Assembly (NCBI GenBank): GCA_021798985.1
Contig: JAJZBI010000008.1
Location: 62,001 to 126,000, forward strand
From: Actinomycetes bacterium
GTDB taxonomy: Bacteria > Actinomycetota > Acidimicrobiia > Acidimicrobiales > Bog-793
Direction: 5' to 3'
Length of the DNA stretch: 64,000 nt
Shown: piece by piece, positions 32,667-54,881 of the stretch
Layout of the letters: every line of letters begins with the position of its first letter
Numbering within the stretch: the stretch's first letter is position 1
Position numbers and translations under genes: made by a program
The notes under the pieces: model-generated
Seen by the model: only the letters and a program-made list of their open reading frames with translations
Database searches by the model: none
Told to the model about the DNA's origin: nothing

Positions 32667-35266
<2,600 letters not shown>

Positions 35267-35270
<4 letters not shown>

Positions 35271-36934
35271 TCTGACAGCTCCATCGGGCGCACGATCGAC
35301 TCGATGAAGGCGATCTCATCGGTGGACAGGCCGTACTTGGCGTACAGGTCGGCATCGGTCCATTGCCTCGTCCACTGCTGCTTCGGGACGAAGGTGTAGA
35401 CCTTCTTCGTCACATGCTGCGACGGCTTGTGCAGAAGGATGAGGAACCGGGTGAGCCGGCACGTGAGGTAGGACAGAGCGCTCTCGGCCTCGTCCTTGGT
35501 CTCGAACGGTCCGATGCACAGGTAGGTCTCGGAGGAGATGGAGCCCGACTCGCCGAGGAATGGAGTGGGCAGGATCCGGTGAGGGTAGGTGTCCTTGTTC
35601 CCGGTCCCCGGCGCCGCGTATCCGATGTAGACCTTCCAGGCGTCGATGAGGTCGGAGCCGGTCGTGATGTCCTTCCTGGGCGTGTAGCCGACCCCACCGT
35701 TCTGGTACACCTTCACGTCCCCGGCACGCTTCGCCGAGCGCGCACGGAACGTAGTCTCCAGCCCGAAGGGCTTCCGGGAGCTCACGAGTCCGTCGAAGCG
35801 CTGAGATGCCTCGAGGGCGAGCTTCTGGTCCTGTCCGGTCTCGACGGCGACCACCTTGCGGAGGATCGACAGTCCCTCGTTGAAGCGGATGAAGACCTCG
35901 AGGCCCGGCTCCAGCAGAGGTCGCGTCGCGGTTGACACGTCCCCGTTCGGGGCATGTGTGGTGACGCGGCAGTCGCCCGGGTGGTCCCGGTCCCACACGA
36001 AGTAGCAGACGCCGCCCTTGAGCCCGACGCCGGAGAACACGTCGCTGGCGTTGAGGTAGTCGTCCAGGGAGCGCAGTCGCTGATCGGCCAGCATCTCCTC
36101 CCGGAAGTCGTCGAGCCCCTTGCCGCCGGAGAACCAGCGCGATGGGATGACGAGGCTCAGCAGCCTAGGCTCGAGCGCCTTGGCCTGCTCGACGAACTTC
36201 TGGTAGATCGGGGCGGCCGAGGTGCCGAACCCGCCGTCGGACAGCTGGTAGGGCGGGTTGCCAATGATGACGTCGAACTGCATGGCCTCTCCCATGATCT
36301 CGCTGATCCGTGCGGTGATGTCGTCGGTGTGAATGAAGACGTAGGCGTGTGTCTCGAGGTCCTCGCCGCGCCCGTAGTCGCCCTCGCCGGCGCCGCAGTA
36401 GCGGCAACGGCGGCCCGAGTAGACGGTCATGTCCTCGCCCTTGGTGGGGTGGGCTTGGATCTCGGGGGGACCGCCCTCCCAGGTGTGCTCGGTCCGCTCG
36501 AACCAGATGTTGCCGGCGGGCGTGGTGAACGACTTGGCGATCGAGTGCTTGCCGTTCGCGTCCTTCGAGCAGTAGAGGCTGCGACGTGCCAGCAGCGCGG
36601 TCAGCCTTGTGATGCCGATGCCGTAGACCTGCCGCGTCAGGATGTGGTCGACTCGGTCGTTGAGGTCGGGGATGGACGGTTCAAGCCCGGCAACCAGCCT
36701 GCGGGTGATCTCGCGCAGGAACACGCCGGACTTGGTGAACGGGTCGAGGAACGTCACGTCCGGGTCGGCCCAGATGCTGGCGCCGTTGTTCGCGGCGGCC
36801 CACCTCTCAGCGACCAGGTCGAGCATGGCGTTGGCTAGATCCGGCGGGGTGAACACCTCGTCGTTGGAGAGGTTCGCGATCGACGTGAGGATGTCGGGGT
36901 TGTGGCCGCGCAGGGTGAACGGTGCCTTCGTCAT
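35267..36934 (-). CDS. Eco57I-type DNA adenine methyltransferase subunit
   Basis: 555 residues. The amino-methyltransferase catalytic motif is NPPYQL (226-231). The AdoMet motif I is DPFTKSGVF (64-72), an unusual form in place of DPACGSG. A small CxxC pair (CRYCGAG, about 177) sits in an inserted loop, and the C-terminal half, with repeated Lys/Arg/Tyr-rich segments, is the likely target-recognition region. The ATG overlaps the upstream methylase stop by ATGA. It would protect host DNA by N6-adenine methylation and set specificity for the helicase-nuclease. Confidence 0.85.
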
Positions 36935-37629
36935 CGTTCCCCCCCGAGCTCGGCGAGGTCTGCCACAGTCAGAGGCGGGTAGGTCGTGGACGGCGTGAAC
37001 AGCGCGTGGCCGAGGCCCGCGAACAGGGAGCCCTCGACCTCGAACGCTGCCCGGTAGGTGAGGTTCTCGTACAGGAAGTCGCGACGCTGGAACCGGCCCT
37101 TGCCCAGGTAGCCCCACTCGGCGAAGGTGATCGGCTTCCCGTCCGGCGCCGCCATTGTCAGGGCGTCGCCCCGCACGATGTTCGCAGCGAGGACGGCCCG
37201 GGCGGCGCGTGCCCACACGTCGTCGTCATCGACGTCGAGGAAGACCGCGAACGCGTCGGCGAGGTTGTCGCGGCACTCGTCGGCGTTGTCTGGAAGCAGC
37301 TCGATCCCGTACAGGCACATGAGGGCGAACAGCGCGTAGTGGCGCTTGGCGAAGTCGCTGCCGGAGTGGCGGGCCTGGACCGTTGCCAGCTTGCGGTTGA
37401 GGACAGCGACGAGGAAGTTGCCGGAGCCGCAGGCCGGCTCCAGCACCCGGGCGTCGATGCGCTCGGCGTCGTCGCCGACTCGATCGAGCATCTCCTCGAC
37501 GAGCCACGGCGGCGTGAACACCTCGCCGTGGTCGACGACCCTCTGCTTGGACTTCACCAAGGCCGCAGCATCGGTCCGCATCCCCGTCCCCTCGCTCATG
37601 TCGTGCCCGCTACCCACCGTAGGGGTCAT
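36931..37629 (-). CDS. Small N6-DNA methylase-like subunit with AdoMet motif only
   Basis: 232 residues from ATG 37629. It has a canonical AdoMet-binding motif LEPACGSG (63-70) and GIEL, but no NPPY catalytic motif, so it cannot methylate alone by the usual mechanism. The following gene has NPPY but an altered motif I, and the two may form one enzyme. ATG 37629 is chosen because it overlaps the stop of the upstream broken gene by ATGA; ATGs at 37599 and 37581 are alternatives. Confidence 0.75.
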   Translation of the reverse strand: MTPTVGSGHDMSEGTGMRTDAAALVKSKQRVVDHGEVFTPPWLVEEMLDRVGDDAERIDARVLEPACGSGNFLVAVLNRKLATVQARHSGSDFAKRHYALFALMCLYGIELLPDNADECRDNLADAFAVFLDVDDDDVWARAARAVLAANIVRGDALTMAAPDGKPITFAEWGYLGKGRFQRRDFLYENLTYRAAFEVEGSLFAGLGHALFTPSTTYPPLTVADLAELGGER

Positions 37630-50846: not shown

Positions 50847-51750
50847 CGACTCGTCGCCGAACGGTCCGACGCGGTCACTGCGGTACCGAGCGAACAGCTG
50901 CCAGGTCGAGAGGTTGTCCTCGGCGATCTCGTCGCGCTGAAGAAGATCCGCCTGCCCGCCGACGCGCTCGTCGCCCAGGGGGAGCTCGCTGCTCTCGAGC
51001 TGCCGACGGGGCACGCCCGGCGCCTCGCCCGGGCCCTCGCCGGCTTCGCAGCGCCGAGCCCCGTTGTCGACGCGCGCGGCCGCCACCTCGGTGGTGCCCA
51101 CGGCGAGCCTGCGCGCCCATGCGCGGCGCATCATGGAGGCCTGGGAGGCACAGCCCGAGCTGTCGGGGCCGGGCCTCGCCGCTGCCCTCGAGGCAGCGGT
51201 CGGCGCGGTGGCGCGGCTCCGCTCGAGCCAGAGCATCGACCTCGTCTGGACGGGCCCGGCAACCGCGGAGGTGCCCGTGCGCCTCACCGCCGAGGTGCTC
51301 GCCGAGGTCATCGGCTCGGCCACCGGGCGCCTCATCGTCGTCTCCTTCGCCGCCTACCGCGTGCCCGAACTCGTGGCCGCGCTCGTCGCCGCGGCACGGC
51401 GTGGCGTCGAGGTCCGCCTCGTGCTCGAGGACGGCGACGCGGACGGCGGGACGCTCAAGGTGCCAGCCGCTGCCGCCTTCGGCGAGCTTGAGGGCCCCGT
51501 CACTTCTTCTCCTGGCCCCGCGAGCGAGCGCCCCGTGCTCCCCGGCGGGAGCCGGGCCTCCATGCACGCGAAGGCGGCCATCGCGGATGAGCACACGAGC
51601 CTCACGACGAGTGCGAACCTCACCGGCCATGGGATCGAGGCGAACACGGAGCTCGGCCTCCTCATCCGGGGCGGTCCCATCCCTAAGCGCCTCGCCCGCC
51701 ACTTCCGCCAGCTGATGGCGCTCGGCATCTTGCGCCCGGTCGGCGAGTAG
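50847..51750 (+). pseudogene. drmC: DrmC-like phospholipase D-fold protein, frameshifted at its N-terminus
   Basis: From TTG 51064 a 228-residue frame matches the DISARM-associated PLD protein DrmC: DLVWTGPATAEVPVRLTAEV, LIVVSFAAYRVPELV, VEVRLVLEDGDADGG, then the PLD catalytic block SMHAKAAIADEHTSLTTSAN (HxK present) and GGPIPKRLARHFRQLMALG. The family N-terminus (ELPTGHARRLARALAGF) is in another frame at about 50990-51060, joining near 51065-51085, so a frameshift is likely. No drmA, drmB or methylase is adjacent, so this is an orphan piece of DISARM. Confidence 0.65.
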
Positions 51751-51982: not shown

Positions 51983-52390
51983 CTAGCGGCCAGATCGATC
52001 TGACCATCGCCAGAGCCGAGTCCACCATCGGCTCGGCGCCGGGGGAGCAGGTGTTCGTTGAGCTTCGACCGCTCGCTGATCAGCTGCTCGGACCTCGACC
52101 ATTTCGCCAACGTCGAGTTTGCGATGCCAGTCGATGCCGCCCCGGGTGATGAAGTAGTGAGAGTTGCACGGTAGCCCCGTCGCCGCGACTGACGGCCACA
52201 GCGAGACCTCGCCGTCGAAGGTGACCTTCCACCTGACTGGGGACAGCTTGGTGACGACCTCGCATCCGCACCCGCACGGGCAGATGTGCCCGGCCGTCGA
52301 GTAGGACGTCGAGACGTAGAGAATGCCCGGCTGCATGGGCGTCGGGAACGACTCCACGAACTCTGCCGTGTAGTGCTCGATGCGGCTCAC
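51983..52390 (-). CDS. Cysteine-rich DUF6527-like partner of the ubiquitin-like cassette
   Basis: 135 residues. A compact metal-binding cluster HICPCGCGC (His35, Cys37, Cys39, Cys41, Cys43) with a distant GLPCNSH (Cys75, His78) suggests a zinc site. Strands around KVTFDGEVSLWPSV and FITRGGIDWHRK follow, then a proline-rich and tryptophan-rich tail. GTG 52390 overlaps the ThiF-family stop (GTGA). I take it for the DUF6527-type protein found beside bacterial Ubl/E1 genes. It could carry the transfer cysteine or only bind zinc. Confidence 0.7.
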   Translation of the reverse strand: MSRIEHYTAEFVESFPTPMQPGILYVSTSYSTAGHICPCGCGCEVVTKLSPVRWKVTFDGEVSLWPSVAATGLPCNSHYFITRGGIDWHRKLDVGEMVEVRAADQRAVEAQRTPAPPAPSRWWTRLWRWSDRSGR

Positions 52391-53547
52391 GCCCCCTCCC
52401 CGTTCCGCAGCTCGTTGAGGTAGAGCTTGTACACGGTCTGGTTCTTCTTCTCGTGCGTGGCGTAGAAGCCGAGGTACCGCTTCCATTGGATCACGGCGAG
52501 GGCAGCGTTCAGGCCGTTCAGCTCCGCGATCTGGATGTTGCTGCCATAGTCGTCCCCTCCTGGCGTAATGGCCGGAGCGCTAGGCAGAGTGACGTCCTCG
52601 CCGGGGAGATAGGCCGTCACCTTGGCGATGCCGGTGAGCCCGCCTTCGCCTTCCCGGAAGCTCATGCCGACGTCGATGAATGGGATGCCCCTCTCCCAGA
52701 GCCACTGCATGATCTCCGGGCGTGACTGCGCGTCGGCAGCCGCCAGAAATACAAACGTGGCCCCTTCGAGGAGATGGAGGTTGTTCCGGGTGAGAGCGAC
52801 CGGGTGAGCAGTAATACCAGTGTGCATCCGGGAGTACTCCTCGGCGAAGTACTCGGCCTTGTTGCGCTTGGCTCTGAGAATCTCGTGGGCGGCAGCGCCG
52901 GGAGCACGGTAGGCGTTGTGGTTCTGGAACTCGTCGCCGTCGATGATGATGATCCGGTCCACCCACGTTTTGGCGACTTGGTCGAGGATATAGCTGCCCG
53001 TGCCGCCGACGCCGACGATCGCGATGGTATGACCGCGAAAGCGGTTGTTGAGGGTGGTCAGGCCCGCGCGTGTCGTGTTCGTGTCGCGGTAGACGAGGGG
53101 CAGGCCGTCCTCGACGACCTGGAAGGCTGCGCCGGGTGTATCCGTGACGGTCGGGTCGACGTGCTGCGCCGCGTCTCTCAGAATGTGAGCGTAGTGGCGG
53201 ATCTTCCCCAGGAGGTGCGGGTAGCTTCCGCTGGCGGGCTTGAAGGACAGCAGGTAACCGGCGACCCGCCCGCCGCCGTAGTCGTGCTGGTTCGAAGACG
53301 CGAGCGCCCTCCCGTTCTCGTCGCGGGGTTCCTCGCCAGCGAACCAGATCCGGTGGTCAGTGGCGTCGGTGATGACGCCGTTCGTGTCGTTGATTGGCAG
53401 GATGAGGCAGCCGTCGTGGTGAAGGCCCGATGGCCCGAGGTACGGCAGGCGACGGATGACCAGGTGCCCATGCTCAAGCACCATGTCATAGCCGTCGGCC
53501 AAGAGCTCGGCTATCGAGTCATCAGGACCGGTTGGCGGGCTCGACAT
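52387..53547 (-). CDS. E1-like ThiF/HesA adenylyltransferase with N-terminal DUF6791-like domain
   Basis: 386 residues from ATG 53547. Residues 1-165 form a separate domain (LVIRRLPYLGPSGLHHDGCL, then AGYLLSFKPASGSYPHLLGK). The ThiF/E1 adenylation domain follows, with GVGGTGSYI at 179-187, IIDGDEFQNHNAYRAPG at 201-217 and WERGIPFIDVGM. It would activate the C-terminus of the neighbouring ubiquitin-like protein with ATP. The whole protein contains only one cysteine, Cys47, in the N-terminal domain, so the usual E1 catalytic cysteine is absent. The start overlaps the Ubl gene by 26 bases. Confidence 0.85.
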   Translation of the reverse strand: MSSPPTGPDDSIAELLADGYDMVLEHGHLVIRRLPYLGPSGLHHDGCLILPINDTNGVITDATDHRIWFAGEEPRDENGRALASSNQHDYGGGRVAGYLLSFKPASGSYPHLLGKIRHYAHILRDAAQHVDPTVTDTPGAAFQVVEDGLPLVYRDTNTTRAGLTTLNNRFRGHTIAIVGVGGTGSYILDQVAKTWVDRIIIIDGDEFQNHNAYRAPGAAAHEILRAKRNKAEYFAEEYSRMHTGITAHPVALTRNNLHLLEGATFVFLAAADAQSRPEIMQWLWERGIPFIDVGMSFREGEGGLTGIAKVTAYLPGEDVTLPSAPAITPGGDDYGSNIQIAELNGLNAALAVIQWKRYLGFYATHEKKNQTVYKLYLNELRNGEGA

Positions 53548-53782
53548 CGAAGACCATTCCCTCCTTGACCTCGACGCTCCGGCCGGGGCGCAGCGAGTGG
53601 TCGGGGCCGTGTCCGCGGCTGTACTCAACCGTCGTGCCCTCCGGGTCGTACGGCTGGCCCGGAAAGGCGAGCTCGACTACCTGCTCGAAGCTGATCTTCT
53701 TCTCCTCCCACGGGATCTGCCTGGTGTTGACGATGATCGACACCGTTTCGGCCTTCTCGGCGACCGGTTCGACTGCGGTCAT
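53522..53782 (-). CDS. Ubiquitin-like (multiubiquitin-domain) protein
   Basis: 86 residues with the beta-grasp pattern of the Multiubiquitin family (VSIIVNTRQIPWEEKKISFE, then QVVELAF, then TTVEYSRGHG and GRSVEVKEGMVFDVEPANRS). It has a single domain and ends in NRS with no diglycine, so conjugation, if any, must use another end or need no processing. There is no protease gene beside it. ATG 53782 follows AGGAGG at 53791-53796. It is the first gene of a three-gene operon with the E1-like and Cys-rich genes. Confidence 0.8.
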   Translation of the reverse strand: MTAVEPVAEKAETVSIIVNTRQIPWEEKKISFEQVVELAFPGQPYDPEGTTVEYSRGHGPDHSLRPGRSVEVKEGMVFDVEPANRS

Positions 53783-53848
53783 GGAAGCATCCTCCTATCC
53801 AGGCTCACGGGCTCTATGCTGGTGTGGCGAGTCCGACGCGCTGTGCCG

Positions 53849-53876
53849 AGTATAGCGCAGGTGGGTCGACTTTCAA
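53849..53876 (-). promoter_or_regulatory. Promoter of the ubiquitin-like operon
   Basis: On the minus strand, TTGAAA (53871-53876) and TATACT (53849-53854) lie 16 bases apart, giving a leader of about 60 bases before the Ubl start codon. The promoter sits in the 143-base gap shared with the divergent XRE gene, where that repressor would be expected to bind. Confidence 0.65.
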
Positions 53877-53925
53877 GCAGTGCGCTGGAAGTGCGACACT
53901 GGAGCCCCGAGGGCAGAGGAGACCT

Positions 53926-54303
53926 GTGACAAGAACGAAGATCGACGTCCACGGTTTATACGCCGCTTTGGACGCAGAGCGCACCGCCCGTGGTTGGTCA
54001 TGGAGGCAGCTGGCGAAGGAGATCGGTGTGAGTCCGTCGCTTCTCTCCCGCCTCGGTAACGAACTACGCCCCGATGCTGACGGGTTCGCGACGCTTGTGC
54101 GGTGGCTCAACATGCCAGCCGAACAGTTCATGATCGACGTCGACGGCCAACGCGGGACCCAGACAGAGCCCGATCTCGTCACGCAACTGGCGCCCCTCCT
54201 TAGAGCACGGCAAGACCTCGACAAGCGTGACGTCGCCTACCTTGAAGAAGTGATTCGAGCGACAGTGCGGCATGTTCACGCGGCCCGGGATGCAGCCGGG
54301 TGA
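53926..54303 (+). CDS. XRE-family helix-turn-helix regulator
   Basis: 125 residues. A Cro/C1-type helix-turn-helix is at about 8-65 (LYAALDAERTARGWSWRQLA, then KEIGVSPSLLSRLGNELRPD). A helical tail follows. GTG 53926 follows AGAGGAGA. It overlaps the ImmA-like gene (GTGA), a classic repressor-protease pair, and is divergent from the ubiquitin-like operon, which it probably represses. Confidence 0.85.
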   Translation: MTRTKIDVHGLYAALDAERTARGWSWRQLAKEIGVSPSLLSRLGNELRPDADGFATLVRWLNMPAEQFMIDVDGQRGTQTEPDLVTQLAPLLRARQDLDKRDVAYLEEVIRATVRHVHAARDAAG

Positions 54304-54881
54304 CGGGCAGGCGCAGCGTGAATAAGGCAGCGTGCAAGCGCCTTGCGGCTGAGCTGCGCGCCGAGATCGGACTCGGCCCGATGGACGCACTCGACCCCTG
54401 GAGGCTGGCGGAACTTTACGGCATCGGGGTCATCGCGCTGAGCGCTCTTGCGCTGAGCAGCGAGGTCCGCGAGCACTTCACAGTCGTCCGGCCGGACGCG
54501 TTCTCCGGAGCGCTTGTACCGGTCAGGACCGGTGCTGTGATCATAGAAAACGACTCGCATCTGCTTACTCGTCGTCGGTCCACTATGGCGCACGAGCTTG
54601 CTCACGTCTTCGGCGAGCACAAGTTCGGAACGAGCCTGGTCAACGAGCGCGGCTGCCGCTTGGCGAATCAAGCCCAGGAAGACGAGGCCGCCGAGATTGG
54701 GAGCGAACTCCTCATCCCATTCGAGGCGGCGAAGCGGCTCGCTTGTCGCAAGGCGACCAACGAGGAGGTCGCCCTCCAGTTTGGCGTGAGCGCCGATCTT
54801 GCTCGCTGGCGGATGGACGCAACCGGCGCCCGGCTAATCGCGCGACGACAGGCAGCCGCTCGGCGGGCCAGCGGCACGTAG
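54300..54881 (+). CDS. ImmA/IrrE-family metallopeptidase
   Basis: 193 residues. The zinc-protease motif is intact: STMAHELAHVFGEH (HExxH). The surrounding fold (LDPWRLAELYGIGVIALSAL before it, and EDEAAEIGSELLIPFEAAKR after it) is typical. Such proteases cleave a partner XRE repressor in response to a signal and so switch on an element. The start GTG 54300 overlaps the XRE stop. The natural target here is the repressor encoded just upstream. Confidence 0.88.
   Translation: MTGRRSVNKAACKRLAAELRAEIGLGPMDALDPWRLAELYGIGVIALSALALSSEVREHFTVVRPDAFSGALVPVRTGAVIIENDSHLLTRRRSTMAHELAHVFGEHKFGTSLVNERGCRLANQAQEDEAAEIGSELLIPFEAAKRLACRKATNEEVALQFGVSADLARWRMDATGARLIARRQAAARRASGT

Follow-up and report, generated by a model that had tools for sequence, protein, structure and literature searches.

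A cassette of three overlapping genes lies on the minus strand (51983-53782) of the DNA analyzed here, a stretch of 64,000 nucleotides from an Actinomycetes bacterium, which we call the window and whose numbering is used throughout. The genes encode a ubiquitin-like protein (Ubl), an E1-like enzyme and a protein of the DUF6527 family, and they overlap by 26 nt (Ubl/E1) and 4 nt (E1/DUF6527). The cassette is probably a relative of the bacterial Bub systems that has neither a JAB peptidase nor an E2, belongs to the subset with "domain X", is derepressed upon DNA damage and conjugates its Ubl independently of cysteine. An earlier note on this DNA had described a Ubl without diglycine, a ThiF-type E1 with an N-terminal fusion and a Cys-rich partner, and indeed all three were found, with Pfam matches:

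53522-53782, minus strand: Ubl gene, 86 amino acids, a single Multi_ubiq domain (Pfam PF14452, E = 4.6e-16), with a solved relative (PDB 9cd2)
52387-53547, minus strand: E1-like gene, 386 amino acids from its ATG, with DUF6791 (residues 12-156) and ThiF (residues ~163-384; Pfam, 1.1e-13)
51983-52390, minus strand: DUF6527 gene, 135 amino acids, GTG start, predicted to bind metal (Pfam PF20137, 4.4e-20)

The cassette is conserved in bacteria and archaea

GTDB-type genome contigs were subjected to a two-pattern scan with the E1 alignment, which gave 217 relatives, and 80 loci were kept. Together with two contigs from a viral collection, two loci from the phylum of the window and the window itself, they make up the 85 records analyzed below. 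The E1 and DUF6527 genes were present in all 85 records, two of which end just short of the Ubl gene, and the order Ubl, E1, DUF6527, which the earlier note had proposed to search for in other genomes, was found in every locus whose 5' end is intact (83 of 83, window included). Since the same three families occur in the same order in all these loci, from many phyla and from archaea, the cassette is far beyond chance. Bacterial hosts include Actinomycetota, Pseudomonadota, Bacteroidota, Acidobacteriota, Planctomycetota, Chloroflexota, Nitrospirae, Omnitrophota, Elusimicrobia and Patescibacteria; archaeal hosts include Nitrosopumilus and Nitrososphaerota.

The closest E1s (63-75% identity) are those of Nocardioides, Agreia and other Actinomycetota, with a Nocardioides locus (L007) as the closest relative (75%), and the E1 of a Rhodococcus plasmid is 67% identical. 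A plasmid collection contained 118 records with a match, and the viral contigs gave just two partial matches. DUF6791 was found in 3 of 396 genomes sampled from the phylum of the window; thus, the occurrence of the cassette is sporadic and in keeping with a mobile accessory system.

Relationship to Bub and other ubiquitin-like systems

The layout, which the earlier note did not know to be characterized, has in fact been published. Iyer et al. (2006) describe the same layout as the "domain X" subset of operon type 6e, in which domain X replaces JAB in the E1, with one to three Ubl repeats and a Cys/His metal protein, in proteobacteria and the actinobacterium Frankia; the description there is a prediction, with no tests (PMC1779556). 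Control of Bub operons by CapH and CapP has been published as well (PMC13373217). The window has one Multi_ubiq repeat, a non-JAB N-terminal fusion (DUF6791 plus ThiF) and the metal-protein signature C37-x3-C41 ... C75-x2-H78, the last two residues of which appear in another order than in the printed signature. Domain X would be DUF6791, and the metal protein of 2006 would be DUF6527. Neither an XRE/M78 pair nor an invariant C-terminal Ser is mentioned in the accessible part of PMC1779556.

Canonical Bub operons, such as that of a Citrobacter plasmid, encode Multi_ubiq plus Prok-E2_E, Prok-JAB plus ThiF, and DUF6527 (PDB 9ea4, 9ea5, 9ea8, 9eae and 9eav); their chemistry is taken here from PDB titles and PMC13373217. 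The cassette shares with them a Multi_ubiq Ubl, a ThiF E1 for which Bub gives the best fold match, DUF6527, a cysteine-poor chemistry and CapH+CapP-type control. Unlike them, the window contains no Prok-E2_E (BubB) and no JAB (BubC) but DUF6791 instead, and its Ubl has a native C-terminal Ser. Because the two tested features BubB and BubC are missing, we did not class the cassette as canonical Bub. As judged from its sequence, it is a member of the 2006 domain-X subset and a sister of the Bub pathways, which received their name in 2025-26. The solved relative of the Ubl, PDB 9cd2 ("ZDHYS365 multi-ubiquitin domain protein"), is nearly identical to the Ubl of a DUF6791-type cassette of Buttiauxella (L020); it ends in TQTDKS and has three Ubl repeats, compared to one in the window. 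Bil (BilABCD) and CBASS Cap2/Cap3 also conjugate a Ubl or Ubl-like protein by means of an E1, but they rely on a Cys-based E1/E2 and on a JAB protease; PADLOC E1-E2 models matched the cassette weakly and in the ThiF stretch only.

The Ubl ends in an invariant serine

The Ubl, whose Multi_ubiq domain is of the beta-grasp type, ends in ...FDVEPANRS and has no diglycine. A C-terminal Ser was found in 83 of 83 Ubl proteins, the length of the tail is fixed, and the tail follows the pattern F77-x-V79-x-x-T-x-x-S85 (domain numbering). Its codons lie in the overlap with the E1 gene:

53522-53547, minus strand: overlap of the Ubl 3' end and the E1 5' end, 26 nt, out of phase, kept across phyla and archaea

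In 81/83 loci, the E1 gene starts exactly 26 nt before the Ubl gene ends; therefore, the Ubl tail is dual-coding. That the Ser simply results from the overlap with the E1 frame was nevertheless ruled out. The Ser codons were TCG (36 loci), TCT (20), TCC (15) and TCA (12), and residue 8 of the E1, which overlaps them, is R, L, P or H. Since all four TCN codons are used and E1 residue 8 varies, the constraint acts on the Ubl. Moreover, L082, the sole locus without the Ubl/E1 overlap, retains the C-terminal Ser.

Among the canonical sequences fetched, the standalone BubA proteins of Rhizobium and Synechocystis have Gly at the end (TTTEG), and that of Mycolicibacterium ends in Ser. Thus, the Ser is constant in DUF6791-type cassettes but not unique to them. 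In several canonical loci BubA is fused to BubB, and therefore cleavage would be required. The Ubl of the DUF6791-type cassette is made with its native C terminus, so that no JAB should be needed, which would explain why JAB is dispensable.

The E1 has no conserved cysteine

The window E1 contains exactly one Cys, Cys47, which, as noted earlier, lies outside the adenylation domain; it is located inside DUF6791. Column 47 of the E1 alignment is mostly Thr, whereas Cys is found in 71/85 E1s in column 75 and in 59/85 in column 269. Six of the 85 E1s, including that of the closest relative, L007, have no Cys at all; therefore, a Cys thioester on the E1 cannot be the general step, and indeed a conserved catalytic Cys, the mark of a classical thioester E1, was not found across the 85 E1s. 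The exclusion of the classic E1 thioester step by the earlier note thus stands as far as a general step is concerned. Its proposal that Cys47 may carry the Ubl does not: a catalytic role of Cys47 was ruled out by the Thr-rich column and the six Cys-free E1s, and the residue appears to be incidental. Three of four standalone BubB-type proteins of canonical Bub operons have no Cys or one, and Iyer et al. noted the missing Cys in such proteins in 2006 (PMC1779556); hence, Cys-poor chemistry is a trait of the wider family and not specific to this locus.

The E1 retains the residues for nucleotide binding and adenylation (G179xGGTG, D203, D205, R214, K230 and D292). One invariant residue is a candidate for the transfer step:

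52546-52548, minus strand: codon of Tyr334, just ahead of the last long ThiF helix, invariant (85/85)

Sequence comparison revealed a conserved Tyr in the same region of eight canonical Bub E1s (Y370 in Citrobacter BubCD). According to the title of PDB 9eav, "BubCD(D104A/Y370F)-BubB-BubA(155-229)", Y370 was mutated to obtain the complex.

E2 and JAB are missing, and DUF6791 may replace one of them

Clustering of all open reading frames (ORFs) of the loci gave no recurrent E2 or JAB neighbor; apart from the XRE/M78 regulators, only a gene for DUF2188 (9 loci) and a family of UvrD helicases (7 loci) recurred. Also, the E1 had no JAB match. Prok-E2_E was searched for in 46 host genomes and not found in 45 of them, with one match in Bradyrhizobium; the same search detected no Prok-E2_E in the genome of the window. 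Prok-JAB matched in 25/46 host genomes and was undetected in 21/46, and 8/14 control genomes matched as well. JAB genes are widespread in unrelated pathways, and the only JAB gene in the genome of the window adjoins a CysM/CysO-like pair. An E2 or JAB supplied from nearby or from elsewhere in the genome was therefore rejected. The absence of a JAB peptidase and a separate E2, stated in the earlier note, extends to the homologous loci, where no E2 or JAB gene was consistently present.

53080-53514, minus strand: DUF6791 ("domain X") region of the E1, containing the non-conserved Cys47 (Pfam PF20590, 3.6e-24)

Within DUF6791, H65 and S101 are invariant and K103 and Y119 near-invariant in the 85 E1s. 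The domain is predicted to run from a helix through a four-strand meander to a long helix, an order that fits an E2/RWD domain, and we hypothesize that DUF6791 may be a hidden Prok-E2_E-like domain. In a competing explanation, suggested by Iyer et al. 2006 (PMC1779556), the domain would be a peptidase that replaces JAB and acts in deconjugation, and Ubl-AMP would be transferred directly to targets. DUF6791 does take the position of JAB in the fusion, and H65 and S101 are in line with a peptidase, but the Ubl C terminus is native and fixed, so that no maturation is needed, and no similarity to peptidases was found. We regard a peptidase as possible, yet clearly as the less probable role.

The nearest solved relatives of the E1 are Bub enzymes

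The AlphaFold model of the E1 had a predicted local distance difference test score (pLDDT) of 88, and its top fold matches (Foldseek, VIA) were Citrobacter BubCD, with a Z score of 23.8 and a root mean square deviation of 2.2-2.7 over 212-216 residues of the ThiF part only; the whole E1 model was used for this search, and ThiF dominates its matches. The closest folds also included ThiF, MoeB and MccB, and MccB was one of the closest solved sequences; together with the lack of Cys and of an E2, this would be expected if the E1 only adenylates or, like these enzymes, makes a small-molecule or peptide adduct without transfer of the Ubl to proteins. However, the nearest solved relatives by both sequence and fold are BubCD, in complexes with BubB and BubA. 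Furthermore, Bub has DUF6527 and the Ubl in common with the cassette, and genes for sulfur transfer or biosynthesis were not recurrent in the neighborhood. Therefore, an E1 restricted to adenylation or adduct formation is unlikely.

DUF6527 resembles a metal protein

52265-52288, minus strand: H35-x-C37-x-C39-G-C41-G motif, first half of the predicted metal site (H35, C37 and C41 invariant; C39 in 83/85)
52157-52168, minus strand: C75-x-S77-H78 motif, second half of the predicted metal site (all three residues invariant)

DUF6527 contains the string H35-I-C-P-C-G-C-G-C, and H35, C37, C41, S67, C75, S77, H78 and Y79 are invariant in the 85 records. This set of Cys and His residues looks like a metal site. 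The AlphaFold model had a pLDDT of 89, and comparison with the PDB gave no match by sequence or fold. The earlier note had considered this protein as a carrier of the Ubl, for which we found no positive evidence. A role of DUF6527 as an E2, to which the Ubl would be bound as a Cys thioester, could be argued from its constant position beside the E1 and from its being the sole protein of the cassette with invariant cysteines. However, C37, C41, C75 and H78 form a metal-site pattern, a Zn finger having been predicted in 2006 as well (PMC1779556), C39 is not invariant, and DUF6527 also accompanies canonical Bub operons, which have an E2 of their own. We consider an E2 function of DUF6527 quite improbable.

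A divergent repressor-protease pair adjoins the cassette

53783-53925, no strand assigned: divergent intergenic region between the Ubl and XRE genes, 143 bp, presumed operator/promoter
53849-53876, minus strand: promoter-like TTGAAA-N16-TATACT, reading towards the Ubl gene (one found, 0.1 expected)
53926-54303, plus strand: XRE-family repressor gene, CapH-like, 125 amino acids, likely GTG start (HTH_3, 4.7e-6)
54300-54881, plus strand: ImmA/IrrE-family gene, CapP-like, 193 amino acids, with HELAH (Pfam Peptidase_M78, 1.9e-13; PADLOC capP, 5.1e-12)

The frame noted earlier for the XRE gene, which overlaps the M78 gene, is correct, with GTG 53926 as its likely start, and the divergent XRE/ImmA pair described then is not only present but recurrent. 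Among 69 loci of sufficient sequence, 54 had an M78 gene at most 2.5 kb upstream, in 43 cases together with XRE, compared to 0 of 67 stretches downstream. Canonical JAB-type Bub operons that we fetched also carry the XRE/ImmA pair. Indeed, CapW or CapH+CapP has been reported beside 219 of 544 Bub operons (PMC13373217), so the association is known for the wider family. As described there, single-stranded DNA activates CapP, which cleaves CapH (Lau et al. 2022). The window likewise has XRE and M78 genes adjacent to and divergent from the operon, although the PADLOC capH match is weak (0.028). An unrelated neighbor, for example from a mobile element, is very unlikely: mobile DNA often contains such pairs and 15/69 loci have no upstream M78, but the one-sided distribution, the divergence over a single promoter region and the control of other immune operons by the same pair (PMC13373217) argue against it.

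A similar promoter region was present in the intergenic stretches of L007 and L097. By eye, an inverted repeat surrounds the promoter, CACTGC-N14-GCAGTG in L007 and CATTGC-N14-GCAATG in L097, with a degenerate right arm in the window. The repeat would fit an operator over the promoter, three sequences being too few for proof.

A UvrD helicase gene lies upstream in five loci (L065, L075, L033, L069 and L070) and on a Klebsiella plasmid (L108). The proteins of the five loci have ~1130 amino acids, and their genes immediately precede the Ubl gene in the same direction. Pfam scans of two of them (L065:1780-5172 and L075:2125-5520) revealed an N-terminal M78 domain followed by UvrD and PD-(D/E)XK domains; possibly, this fusion is a DNA-damage sensor-protease. 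The DUF2188 gene is located directly upstream of the Ubl gene in ~9 loci (e.g., L057:5447-5728) and in a canonical Bub locus (L093:2094-2321).

Other genes in the window

51064-51750, plus strand: DrmC of DISARM, phospholipase D-like, convergent with the cassette (NCBIfam DISARM_DrmC_I, 4.8e-61)
32667-37216, minus strand: type IIG restriction-modification-like gene pair (ResIII/T5orf172 plus Eco57I methylase)

No DISARM genes besides DrmC were found among the large ORFs of the window that were scanned. In view of the type IIG-like pair, the cassette may sit in a defence-rich stretch.

Proposed mechanism and implications

In the resting cell, the XRE protein would repress the divergent promoter. 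Single-stranded DNA or another DNA-damage signal would activate the M78 protease, leading to cleavage of the repressor, and the derepressed E1 would adenylate the carboxylate of the C-terminal Ser of the Ubl. The Ubl would then be passed on without a Cys thioester, either via the hydroxyl of Tyr334 or of an invariant residue in DUF6791, or straight to target amines. The fused DUF6791 would do the job of the separate E2 (BubB) of canonical Bub, maturation by JAB would be superfluous for a Ubl made with its final C terminus, and DUF6527 could be a shared accessory factor for target recognition or Ubl removal. The overall read-out could be phage defence or a DNA-damage response.

Several points weigh against conjugation of this kind. 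The window E1 has Ala at the usual D271 (codon 271, 52732-52734) and Asp one residue further on (272), a change seen in its clade and shared by six sequences. The equation of Tyr334 with BubCD Y370 depends on a sequence alignment across an unaligned insert. DUF6791 had no significant similarity to other families in Pfam and PDB profile scans, and its hhalign match to Prok-E2_E (E = 0.09) is not significant, the score being within the permutation null; the alignment is full-length and collinear, 110 of 150 column-permuted controls scored higher, and none of them aligned at least 90 columns. The literature covered, outside which the two main Bub papers lie, contains no biochemistry for a DUF6791-type E1. 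Finally, protection against phage, which the earlier note had brought up, has not been shown even for canonical Bub operons (PMC13373217).

In the same literature, we found no statement of the invariant Ser and the 26-nt overlap, of the Cys-free E1s or of the genome-wide lack of Prok-E2_E, and priority for these observations is uncertain. A stronger version of the proposed mechanism can be put forward only tentatively: a self-contained, Cys-free Ubl ligase in bacteria and archaea, induced by DNA damage, in which one polypeptide would activate a Ubl through its obligatory C-terminal Ser, keep it as an oxyester and pass it to targets, with no E2, JAB or thioester.

The cassette is strictly paired with what is probably a DNA-damage switch, and this suggests a role in stress or defence, which is still unproven for all Bub-type operons. 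Provided that the cassette conjugates, its Ubl, two-domain enzyme and accessory protein would make up a very small system for Ubl ligation, without a Cys step. The invariant C-terminal Ser, Tyr334 and the DUF6791 residues are directly testable, and such a system would reveal what ubiquitination can do without and would be a tractable case for oxyester or direct transfer.

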